64,000 nt of DNA. Source: Lachnospiraceae bacterium (GTDB lineage Bacteria > Bacillota > Clostridia > Lachnospirales > Lachnospiraceae). Position 1 is the first letter of the stretch. Every line of letters begins with the position of its first letter. The stretch is from NCBI GenBank assembly GCA_030531435.1, contig JAUNNN010000003.1:1-64000 (forward strand), given 5' to 3'. The position numbers and the translations under genes were made by a program. The notes under the pieces are model-generated. The model was not told the DNA's origin, did no database searches, and saw only the letters and a program-made list of their open reading frames with translations. Positions 16,157 through 63,999 of this stretch are shown piece after piece.

Positions 16157-17284
16157 TTATACATTAAATAAGAATTCGATAATATCTCCGTCTTTAACGA
16201 CGTATTCTTTTCCTTCTGTTCTCTGCTTTCCTTTTGCTTTAACAGCCTGATAATCAAATCCAGCCTCATCAAGATCAGAATATGCAATAACTTGAGCTCT
16301 GATAAAACCTCTCTCAAAATCTGAGTGAATTTTACCTGCTGCCTGTGGAGCCTTTGTTCCATTCTTAATAGTCCATGCACGGCATTCCTTCTTACCATCA
16401 GTAAGATAAGAAATAAGCCCAAGTAATGAGTAGCTCGCTTTTATGAGTCTATCAAGTCCAGACTCCTTTATGCCAAGTTCTTCCATAAACATTGCCTTCT
16501 CTCCCTCATCAAGATCAGACAACTCTTCTTCTGTTTTTGCACAAATAGGAAGTACTGAAGCGCCTTCAGCTAAAGCCTTTGTTTTTACAATATTATAATA
16601 TGATGAAGATTCTGGATCAGCCACACCATCATCATCCATGTTACATGCATAAATAATTGGCTTTGCAGATAAAAGTCCCATTTCCTTCATTGCAAGTGCA
16701 TATATCTCATTTGTTTCATCATATTCAAATGTACGAGCATTAAGCCCCTTCTCAAGATGAGCCTTTACTTCTTCAAGAAAAGCTGATTCTTCTCTGGCTT
16801 CCTTATTTCCGCCCTTACCAGCCTTTAATGCTTTCTGAAGTCTATTTTCTACCATATCAAGATCAGCAAAAATAAGCTCCATATCAATACATTCCATATC
16901 TCCAGCTGGATCAACAGCTACAGCCTTTGTAGCATCCTCAACTACATGCATGATTTCATCATTGTCAAAGCATCTTACAACGTGGATGATGGCGTCACAT
17001 TCTCTAATATGTCCAAGGAACTTATTTCCAAGGCCTGCGCCCTTAGAAGCTCCCTTAACAAGACCAGCTATATCTGTGAACTCAACCACTGCAGGAGTCT
17101 TCTTATCTGTCTCCCAGTACTCAGCAAGCTTATCAAGTCTCTCATCTGGCACTGCAACTATTCCTGTGTTTGGCTCTATTGTACAGAATGGATAGTTAGC
17201 TGCCTGAGCATTTGCAGTTCCTGTAATTGCGTTAAATAATGTAGACTTACCAACGTTTGGAAGTCCAACGATTCCTAACTTCAT
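16157..17284 (-). CDS. ychF: Redox-regulated ATPase YchF (Obg family)
   Basis: The protein of 375 residues opens with MKLGIVGLPNVGKSTLFNAI (P-loop) and shows the NYPFCTIEPNTG switch I, DIAGLVKGASKGAGLGN (G3) and a C-terminal TGS domain ending in a hydrophobic stretch. YchF binds ATP rather than GTP and associates with ribosomes. The ATG at 17284 has AAAGGAG seven bases upstream. A longer reading would start inside the REP-like repeat and is rejected. The leader is formed by mobile-element remnants. Confidence 0.95.
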   Translation of the reverse strand: MKLGIVGLPNVGKSTLFNAITGTANAQAANYPFCTIEPNTGIVAVPDERLDKLAEYWETDKKTPAVVEFTDIAGLVKGASKGAGLGNKFLGHIRECDAIIHVVRCFDNDEIMHVVEDATKAVAVDPAGDMECIDMELIFADLDMVENRLQKALKAGKGGNKEAREESAFLEEVKAHLEKGLNARTFEYDETNEIYALAMKEMGLLSAKPIIYACNMDDDGVADPESSSYYNIVKTKALAEGASVLPICAKTEEELSDLDEGEKAMFMEELGIKESGLDRLIKASYSLLGLISYLTDGKKECRAWTIKNGTKAPQAAGKIHSDFERGFIRAQVIAYSDLDEAGFDYQAVKAKGKQRTEGKEYVVKDGDIIEFLFNV

Positions 17285-17298
17285 ATTTATCTCCTTTG

Positions 17299-17340
17299 GG
17301 GACGCTTCTTTTGTCATATCCATCGTCCCTCTGTCATATT
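17299..17340. repeat. REP-like hairpin, left copy
   Basis: GGGACG at 17299-17304 pairs with CGTCCC at 17324-17329, and a TGTCATAT motif follows each arm. It lies directly upstream of the ychF ribosome-binding site, so it is in the ychF leader RNA. Confidence 0.7.
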
Positions 17341-17359
17341 ATTTTACAAATCAAGAACG

Positions 17360-17388
17360 ATATTAGCACAAAATATAAAAACTCTCAA
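17360..17388 (-). promoter_or_regulatory. Sigma-A promoter for ychF
   Basis: On the minus strand TTGAGA (17383-17388), 17 bases, then TAATAT (17360-17365). It lies between the REP-like hairpin and the transposase fragment, that is within the element remnant. Confidence 0.6.
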
Positions 17389-17398
17389 TAATCCACTT

Positions 17399-17447
17399 GA
17401 CATTAACGCATATCAACCATGTCGTTGTAAAGGGCGTTGCCAATCAA
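17399..17447 (+). repeat. 49-bp direct repeat, copy 1 (transposase N-terminal coding)
   Basis: The 49 bases are identical to 20077-20125 and in the same orientation. Neighbouring sequence on both sides differs between the copies. Confidence 0.95.
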
Positions 17448-17492
17448 TTTTTAGAAAGATCAATACCTCCTACGCAAACTGGTTTAACATGA
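17400..17492 (+). pseudogene. Y1 transposase fragment (N-terminal remnant)
   Basis: Translation gives THINHVVVKGVANQ, which matches the start of REP-associated Y1 transposases (pattern YHV..RG..R). It then runs into unrelated codons and a TGA at 17490. No start codon is evident and the HUH and catalytic Tyr motifs are absent. Confidence 0.6.
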
Positions 17493-17583
17493 AATACAGT
17501 CGTTCTGGTCCATAATCCATTAAACGCAAACCTCAAAAATGTCATCGGTTCTTAACCGTAGCAATAGGACCGTCCCCAGCATT
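17493..17583. other. Unassigned remnant sequence behind the histidine kinase gene
   Basis: No gene is supported. The stretch contains the short palindrome CGGTTCTTAACCG (17549-17561) and GGACCGTCCCC (17567-17577), a second REP-like type. It may serve as the 3' end of the histidine kinase transcript. Confidence 0.4.
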
Positions 17584-19938
17584 TTACAAATACTTTAAAA
17601 GCATCTCACACAATACATCCATTTTGATAGGCTTACTAAGATAATCATCAAATCCAGCCTCAAGATACATTTCCCTCGCTCCCATAATGGCATTAGCAGT
17701 AAGGGCAATCACCGGAGTATTCAAACATTTATTATTTACAAGTTTCTTTGACTCCTTAAGCGTTTCTATACCATCCATAACAGGCATCATGTGATCGAGC
17801 AAAATAATATCATACTCATTTTCCTGTATAAGAGAAAGCATTTCCTCCCCGTTTTCTGCACAAGTAACATTGGCCTTTGTTCTAGCAAGAAATTTACTGA
17901 TGACCTTTAAGTTAAGTGGAGTATCATCTACAACGAGAATCCTAGCATTTGGAATGTCAATATCTTTTGATTCTTCCTTTGCTTTGTCTGTTGATGCATG
18001 ACGATGCTTCAAATAATTGCCCATTTTCTCATCAGATACAATTTGCTGTGGCAAAGTAACTGTAAATGTTGAGCCCTTCCCATACACACTCTCAACCTTT
18101 ATTTGTCCGTTCATAAGTTCGACAAGTCGTTTTGTAATTGAAAGACCAAGACCTGTTCCCTCTATATTCTTGTTTTCTTTAGTATTAACCTGAGAAAAAC
18201 CACTAAATATTTTATCGATATCTTCTTCTTTAATACCTTGCCCAGAATCCTCTACAGAAATGTTAAGTATGCACGTCTTATCCTCGGTAACTCCATTAAT
18301 GATAAGGTTAACAAATCCCTCTTGAGTATACTTTACCGCATTATTTAGAATATTAGTAATAATCTCTCTCACTCTCTTATCATCACCATAGAACTTTGAG
18401 GGAAGGTTTTCATCTATCATAACATTAAGCTTAAGTCCTTTATCCTCTGCCTTAATGTTAACAAGAGAAGTCACATCGTAAATAATTTCTCCGAGGTTAT
18501 AATTATCATTTATAATTTCAAGCTTTCCTGATTCGATTTTTGAAAAATCAAGAATATCATTCACAATTCGTAAAAGATTTTCACTGGCACTATTTATATC
18601 TCTTGCATACTCTTTAACTGATTCCTGATTGCTTTCCTGAAAAACCATCTCATTCATACCCATTATTGCATTAATTGGTGTTCGAATTTCATGCGACATA
18701 TTTGCAAGAAAATCAGATTTTGCCTTAGTAGCTGCGATAGCATTCTGCGTTTCCTGCTTAATACGGGCAAAGACCTTCACCTGATCGAGGATGGCAAAAA
18801 ACAGAAGTATTATCATTCCTATAATTACAGATAATCCGCTAATATCAATTTTAAATGGCGCATTAGCATTTGATATAGTAATAATGATTTCAAGAAAACC
18901 CGATAAACTAAGTCCAATTAGGCCAAAAAATACGTTTTTATGTTCCTTGCTTCCTTTTATCATTTCCCTTATTGTACATACCATCATAGCTAGAATATAT
19001 ACAAATAAAATGCCATCGATGTAAACAAGAACAGTATAATAGCTAAGAATATTTGTCATATGTAAAAATGTAAGCACAATAAAATTCAACACTGAAATTG
19101 TCTCACATATTGTAAAGATAACATGATATCTTCCTTCAAATATTTCGTCAAAATACAGTAAGAATGGTATTCCCATAGTAATTACAAACATGAATCCTGC
19201 CACACCATCAAAAAAATACCCATTAAAAACAAGCTGAAATAAATGACTGTTAAAAATAATCCATAAAGAAATTGAAAGAATACCTTCAGCTAAATAAATA
19301 AGTGGAGCCTTTCGCTTATCTCGTTTTTCTATATACATAAATATAAATATTGTAATTGTTGATGCAATTATAAGTAAAACGGCCATAGCAAACTGTATTG
19401 ACGAATCTTTAATAAGTCGCATCACAATCCCCATCATCGTTCCAATATAAGCAGTATGGACCATACCTCTATGATATTTACCATCATTAACAACAAGCGA
19501 TAATTCCTTTCCAGCATACTCACTCATAAGAGGTATAGGTACAACTATCGGCTTTGTAATCGTTCCAGGTAGAACAGATATCTCATTATCAAATGTATAT
19601 ATTACAGCATTATTAACATATGCCCTATAGCTTTTTCCTGTAGAAATAGCAAGATATGTTTTATCTGAAATATGATTTGGCAGAGTTGTCCTTATAGTGA
19701 CATACTCATCCTTAGATAATTCTAGGTTTGTTGGCATAGTAAATGTTTCTTTACTCCCATCCGCATTCTCTCTTACCCACTCGTTCTCATATACATCAGC
19801 GACATCATCGAGTAGCTTTATTTTGGGGGAAACAATATTTCCAATAATTACAAAAAGGAACATAAACAAAAAGCAGACCTTTATTAAAAATCTTAATACT
19901 AAATTGAATTTACTATTATCTTTTATGTTACTGTTCAT
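17584..19938 (-). CDS. Hybrid sensor histidine kinase with C-terminal receiver domain
   Basis: The 784-residue membrane protein has one N-terminal helix, an extracytoplasmic beta-rich sensor (about residues 40-180) and seven closely spaced helices (about 185-390). HisKA follows with phospho-acceptor His about 416 in SHEIRTP, then HATPase with NAVKYT, DSGQG and GTGLGLSI. A receiver domain has its acceptor Asp near 715 in LLDHMMP. The layout resembles 7TM-type (DISM-like) sensor kinases. No output domain or partner regulator is adjacent, so phosphate probably passes to an unlinked protein. The start at 19938 has GAGGG upstream; a longer reading adds 11 residues. It lies between two transposase remnants. 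Confidence 0.9.
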   Translation of the reverse strand: MNSNIKDNSKFNLVLRFLIKVCFLFMFLFVIIGNIVSPKIKLLDDVADVYENEWVRENADGSKETFTMPTNLELSKDEYVTIRTTLPNHISDKTYLAISTGKSYRAYVNNAVIYTFDNEISVLPGTITKPIVVPIPLMSEYAGKELSLVVNDGKYHRGMVHTAYIGTMMGIVMRLIKDSSIQFAMAVLLIIASTITIFIFMYIEKRDKRKAPLIYLAEGILSISLWIIFNSHLFQLVFNGYFFDGVAGFMFVITMGIPFLLYFDEIFEGRYHVIFTICETISVLNFIVLTFLHMTNILSYYTVLVYIDGILFVYILAMMVCTIREMIKGSKEHKNVFFGLIGLSLSGFLEIIITISNANAPFKIDISGLSVIIGMIILLFFAILDQVKVFARIKQETQNAIAATKAKSDFLANMSHEIRTPINAIMGMNEMVFQESNQESVKEYARDINSASENLLRIVNDILDFSKIESGKLEIINDNYNLGEIIYDVTSLVNIKAEDKGLKLNVMIDENLPSKFYGDDKRVREIITNILNNAVKYTQEGFVNLIINGVTEDKTCILNISVEDSGQGIKEEDIDKIFSGFSQVNTKENKNIEGTGLGLSITKRLVELMNGQIKVESVYGKGSTFTVTLPQQIVSDEKMGNYLKHRHASTDKAKEESKDIDIPNARILVVDDTPLNLKVISKFLARTKANVTCAENGEEMLSLIQENEYDIILLDHMMPVMDGIETLKESKKLVNNKCLNTPVIALTANAIMGAREMYLEAGFDDYLSKPIKMDVLCEMLLKYL

Positions 19939-19959
19939 GCATTTAACCCTCTTTGCCAA

Positions 19960-19988
19960 ATAGTAATCCAAAACAATCTAAAAAACAA
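19960..19988 (-). promoter_or_regulatory. Candidate promoter for the histidine kinase gene
   Basis: On the minus strand TTGTTT (19983-19988), 17 bases, then TACTAT (19960-19965). The match to consensus is moderate. The remaining sequence to 20076 holds no gene. Confidence 0.4.
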
Positions 19989-20076
19989 ATCAATCACTTG
20001 CTATTAATAGACTTATTTCAAGCCCATTCAAAATTATACACGCAAAATCTCCGCACAACAACCAATCTGTTGCGCA

Positions 20077-20125
20077 GACATTAACGCATATCAACCATGT
20101 CGTTGTAAAGGGCGTTGCCAATCAA
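20077..20125 (+). repeat. 49-bp direct repeat, copy 2
   Basis: Identical over 49 bases to 17399-17447. Confidence 0.95.
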
Positions 20126-20275
20126 ATAATATTTGAAGAAAGAAAGGATTTTGAGAAATATATAAATAAATTACACTCTCTAGGCATTTCCATTCGTCAA
20201 TTAAGCAGACTAACCGGCGTTCCCAAAGGTGTTATACAAAATGTACTAGTAAAATATCCCATCGATAATAAATAG
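20078..20275 (+). pseudogene. Internally deleted Y1 (REP-associated) transposase
   Basis: The frame reads from THINHVVVKG through IIFEERKDFEKYI straight into LHSLGISIRQLSRLTGVPKG and a TAG stop. The first part is the N-terminus and the second the C-terminal helix-turn-helix tail of REP-type Y1 transposases. The middle, with the HUH pair and catalytic tyrosine, is missing, so this is a deletion derivative that cannot transpose by itself. Confidence 0.65.
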
Positions 20276-20278
20276 TAT

Positions 20279-20319
20279 GCATGACAAAGGGACGCTCCAT
20301 ATGACAAAAGAAGCGTCCC
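20279..20319. repeat. REP-like hairpin, right copy (inverted)
   Basis: GGGACGCT (20289-20296) pairs with AGCGTCCC (20312-20319). The outer 21 bases (20299-20319) are the exact reverse complement of 17299-17319. Confidence 0.75.
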
Positions 20320-20336
20320 TATAGTTCCCTATAGTT
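20317..20336. repeat. 10-bp tandem duplication at the element edge
   Basis: CCCTATAGTT is present twice in a row. The second copy contains the stop codon of the LRR gene. It sits exactly at the right end of the REP-like hairpin. Confidence 0.7.
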
Positions 20337-63978: not shown

Positions 63979-63999
63979 GGGACGCTTCTTTTGTCATAT
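63979..63999 (+). repeat. REP-like sequence, third copy (cut by window edge)
   Basis: The 21 bases are identical to 17299-17319 and in the same orientation. It lies 12 bases upstream of the yifB -35 element. The rest is beyond the window. Confidence 0.8.

Follow-up and report, generated by a model that had tools for sequence, protein, structure and literature searches.

Decayed RAYT remnants enclosing a probably resident hybrid histidine kinase gene beside ychF in a Lachnospiraceae genome

The window analysed in this study (64,000 nucleotides) belongs to contig C14 of a draft genome (G000; 2.19 Mb in 95 contigs), for which genome searches returned Lachnospiraceae as relatives. All sampled relatives belong to species other than that of G000; the nearest one available for comparison is G013, while G242 represents another genus (its YchF is 55% identical). 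The region considered here (17299-20319) sits directly beyond the mraZ-ychF end of the division/cell-wall cluster and contains the following features:

17299..17337, + strand: left REP/TIR end (LE-type), adjoining the ribosome-binding site of ychF; outer flank CTCCTTTG; same position as the LE of the full G242 RAYT
17338..17410, + strand: probable RAYT leader/promoter remnant, weakly similar to bases 40-128 of the G242 element
17399..17447, + strand: left copy of a 49-nt repeat, encoding the RAYT N-terminal residues THINHVVVKGVANQ; identical to 20077-20125
17448..17509, + strand: RAYT middle fragment IFRKINTSYANWFNMKYSRSG; against the G242 RAYT, 67% amino acid identity and, at the DNA level, 76% identity (55 nt, E 1.7e-8)
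17510..17577, + strand: further possible RAYT remnant (HNPLNANL), ending in ACCGTCCCC at a distance of 6 nt from the stop codon of the kinase; weak, short matches (E ~1)
17584..19938, - strand: intact hybrid histidine kinase of 784 aa, with a membrane sensor part and HisKA (406-471), HATPase_c (518-632) and receiver (667-780) domains (Pfam)
20050..20078, - strand: weak terminator-like hairpin spanning the beginning of the right 49-nt copy, in the interval from LRR gene to kinase
20077..20125, + strand: right copy of the 49-nt repeat, identical to 17399-17447; just these two copies found in the genome
20126..20275, + strand: continuation of the RAYT N-terminus, joined in frame to the C-terminal HTH (G242 RAYT residues 11-34, then 220-250; internal part deleted)
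20281..20319, - strand: right REP/TIR end, RE-type, outer flank TATA; shares 98% identity with the REP at G000:C38:10776 across 40 nt

The sequence-only reading had described inverted 21-base ends 3 kb apart, and it was right on both the match and the coordinates: GGGACGCTTCTTTTGTCATAT stands on the + strand at 17299-17319 and on the - strand from 20319 downward, identical at 21/21 positions. These 21 nt are part of 44-nt arms that are 86% complementary, with 2943 nt between them. The REP-type hairpins of the same description are clear at the right end (RNA MFE -18.6 kcal/mol) but weaker at the left (-7.9 kcal/mol). The two ends are not peculiar to the kinase: both are members of a dispersed REP family of 39 nt, which matches at 13 places in G000 besides this pair. 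Elsewhere in that genome the REPs are solo copies plus one inverted dimer, with no transposase gene beside them, and because solo LE-type and solo RE-type copies are both common, truncated elements are not unusual there. REPs of the same kind are present in a few other genera, including at ychF in G242, but a search of the G013 genome found no copy. Further REPs on the contig of the window include a solo copy at 63979, at the window edge, and the inverted dimer (G000:C14:78326-78411). A 10-nt tandem repeat (CCCTATAGTT, 20317-20336) lies directly at the right REP end and covers the stop codon of the LRR gene.

Two fragments of one Y1-type transposase, each with an identical 49-base stretch, had been proposed just inside these ends, and both indeed align to the RAYT of G242 (259 aa; PF01797 match, E 1.2e-14; C-terminal HTH; 61 bits against NF047646 REP_Tyr_transpos, below the cut-off of 80). 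The left fragment comprises N-terminal and middle residues, the 49-nt copy being followed by IFRKINTSYANWFNMKYSRSGP, which shares 67% identity with the G242 RAYT (local score 101 vs a maximum of 49 in 300 shuffles). In the right fragment the copy is followed by IIFEERKDFEKY and then by the C-terminal HTH piece YINKLHSLGISIRQLSRLTGVPKGVIQNVL (local score 93 against the same protein), the N-terminal part being fused in frame to the HTH. Residues ~34 to 78, HuH part included, are absent from both fragments in the alignment to the G242 RAYT. The leader remnant gives a gapped alignment of 62.5% over 128 columns including the LE (E 2e-6), to which the LE contributes most. A Y1_Tnp profile search across G000 for an intact Y1 transposase gave no match, and G013 had no Y1 gene above threshold. 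The transposase at this locus is dead, and the region keeps remnants only, as fragments resembling the G242 RAYT; the identification as REP/Y1 appears right.

The two 49-nt copies (100% identical, both encoding THINHVVVKGVANQ, with no third copy found in G000) end sharply on both sides, their 40-nt flanks matching at 9/40 and 14/40 positions. As the left and right fragments overlap by just these 49 nt and, at most, a few uncertain terminal bases, such edges would follow if the left copy were broken at its end and the right one at its start. Both copies also include an apparent promoter-to-coding junction (GACATT running into the N-terminal codons, in a weak alignment) and for this reason probably come from one parent. 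The end of the left remnant at 17577 was considered as a true RE and rejected: its outer flank (CAGC) is not RE-like, the pattern GGGGACGGTNCTATTGCTACGG had no match in IMG/VR, and the stretch 17440-17600 had none among plasmids.

The sensor-kinase gene between the fragments is intact, as had been described, with HisKA, HATPase_c and Response_reg in one undisrupted chain and no named Pfam domain in the sensor part. The promoter of its own that it had been credited with is indistinguishable from background (18 promoter-like matches vs 14.8 +/- 4.3 in shuffles), and terminator-like hairpins numbered two vs 1.4 expected. The kinase has the domain order of the hybrid histidine kinases of Lachnospiraceae (HisKA-HATPase_c-REC with a membrane sensor), full-length homologues occur throughout the genus, and nothing specific sets it apart from them. 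Its composition is native (GC 0.328, compared with 0.326 for the LRR gene and 0.327 for ftsQ). In G000 it is single-copy at this identity, and a scan of genome contigs for full-length relatives gave none above 38% identity. The kinase tree placed the G013 kinase as its sister (support 100/100), as expected of a resident gene, at 51% identity, a level comparable to that of other fast-evolving genes shared with G013 (LRR protein 59%, transglutaminase 56%).

In G013 this kinase is part of an operon-like row, flanked by an M18-type peptidase gene and an fn3-type gene (named by sequence reading), without REPs; the conserved block next to this G013 locus has its G000 counterpart at C58, where the kinase is absent. 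The G013 orthologue of the LRR gene is on another contig, where it follows a different hybrid kinase. With their orthologues at other loci, the kinase and LRR genes appear to be native genes with differing neighbours. Upstream of ychF in G013 there was no REP, no kinase and no LRR gene, and the kinase adjoined ychF in no relative examined. Since the G013 ychF upstream lacks both REP and kinase, and G013 lacks REP copies altogether, the REPs and the kinase appear to have separate histories. The kinase does occur elsewhere in a relative, but without the same ends. No relative examined carried it at this locus, and the observation named beforehand as refuting, the kinase here in relatives free of ends and fragments, was thus not made. 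No clean empty or pre-insertion ychF-LRR junction was found in G013, because synteny past ychF differs there.

The element family is already known, as RAYT/REPtron (REP-associated tyrosine transposase, TnpA_REP) and TIRtron/TIRYT systems (Di Nocera et al., 2013; PMC3733652). As in these, there are a Y1_Tnp domain and a C-terminal HTH (in the G242 relative) and flanking short inverted palindromic ends, which are also dispersed as solo and dimer repeats. The ends here begin GGGGAC, close to the TIRtron motif GGGGWSAS (PMC3733652), and read GGGGACG[CG], unlike the GTAG tag. Departing from both systems, the gene in G000 is in two fragments with a kinase between them, and no live copy exists in that genome. 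The inverted dimer at G000:C14:78326-78411, with the same ends ~85 nt apart, resembles REPIN/BIME dimers, whereas the pair at 17299/20319 stands 3 kb apart and encloses a gene.

In G242 a complete REP-RAYT-REP element of about 1.07 kb (L208, 4810-5880), free of cargo, lies directly upstream of the ychF ribosome-binding site. It occupies exactly the spot of the left end in G000, which makes this boundary a site where the element inserts recurrently. At ychF in both genomes GGGACG directly adjoins the ribosome-binding-site complement CTCCTTTG, and the outer flanks of the G242 element and of 17299-20319 are alike (CTCCTTTG at the LE, TATA at the RE). Since the ychF genes of the other relatives examined, G013 included, have no REP upstream, parallel insertion at a preferred target would be the simplest reading of these sequences. 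At a number of genes, several besides ychF in G242 among them, a REP end of this family borders on the Shine-Dalgarno complement (CTCCTTTG|GGGACG) a few bases ahead of the start codon, so that the hairpin comes to lie just upstream of the ribosome-binding site (L213 and L215-L219 in G242; L023, L032 and L212 in G000). Although the pattern search was biased to such sites, at least three of roughly 15 REPs in G000 are so placed, and the family apparently targets ribosome-binding sites.

We consider it probable (roughly 0.6) that the kinase is an ordinary resident gene, inherited vertically, which a rearrangement brought to lie among decayed RAYT copies, and not a Y1 passenger. A REP-flanked Y1 transposase gene (RAYT/TIRYT-type) would have inserted at the ychF ribosome-binding site, a recurrent target, and would then have died by internal deletion; a second, 5'-truncated RAYT copy or duplicated piece would lie beside the LRR gene; and the kinase, a normal chromosomal gene of the lineage, would have been placed there by a lineage-specific rearrangement around ychF. 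The RAYT copies would have arrived independently of the kinase, and the 49-nt repeats may represent the overlap of two truncated sibling copies or a recombination scar between them. Against this reading, each fragment lacks exactly its kinase-proximal end and the LE and RE are oriented as a single unit, so that a one-element history would be more direct. The lack of a clean empty site in G013 and the restriction of the sampled relatives to other species also count against it.

Such a history, in which kinase DNA inserted into one dead RAYT or recombined in via RAYT repeats, leaving the 49-nt repeats as a scar and the LE and RE as the ends of one element, is the foremost alternative but seems rather unlikely. 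It would account for the presence of one LE-type and one RE-type end whose outer flanks are those of a single unit, as seen in G242, for the sharp exact repeats either side of the kinase segment and for the kinase-proximal element ends missing on both sides. However, with the middle RAYT piece to the left of the kinase and the N-terminal residues repeated on its right, the order is not the one that simple insertion with target duplication gives; this history requires either another RAYT copy or a partial duplication. The commonness of solo LE-type and RE-type REPs in G000, where truncated elements are not unusual, also weakens it.

Movement of the 3.02-kb LE-kinase-RE unit as a Y1 passenger, mobilised in cis or trans by a since-lost RAYT, is very improbable. 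Its LE and RE are oriented as a Y1 enzyme would use them and its LE sits on the recurrent target of the family at ychF, but carriage is possible in geometry alone, with no positive evidence: the kinase is single-copy at this identity in G000 and the 49-nt repeat is found nowhere else there, the G242 element at the same site is cargo-free, the phylogeny and composition of the kinase are those of a resident gene, and two different RAYT fragments inside the ends are unexpected for a clean capture. Comparison of G000, G013 and G242 gave neither a second site with the same ends and cargo nor a precise empty site. Between the captured passenger and the chance landing that the sequence-only reading had weighed, the dispersed ends, the cargo-free G242 element, the dead transposase and the resident kinase speak against the former, and a chance or passive origin fits better. 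Carriage would, to our knowledge, make this the first RAYT-type element with a passenger gene; a limited literature search for RAYTs carrying cargo returned nothing relevant, and tISCpe8, considered as a Y1 element with cargo, was dropped as the literature assigns it to IS1595. An assembly artefact, i.e. a false contig join at the 49-nt repeat, is the least probable explanation, for although the assembly is a 95-contig draft with an exact repeat at each junction, final assembly k-mers are usually longer than 49 nt and each fragment continues RAYT-like past the repeat.

On the preferred reading of a resident kinase, enclosure by REP ends and transposase pieces does not by itself make a gene cargo if the ends belong to a dispersed family with preferred landing sites. 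A RAYT at the ychF ribosome-binding site in two genera, together with REPs abutting such sites, amounts to a testable target preference, which would concern the poorly studied RAYT/TIRYT group of Lachnospiraceae. YchF itself (16157-17284) shares 94% identity with that of G013, but only 57-59% with those of the other members of the genus that were examined and as much as 61% with that of another family, a pattern that would reflect either an exchange of the gene or a deep division within the genus.
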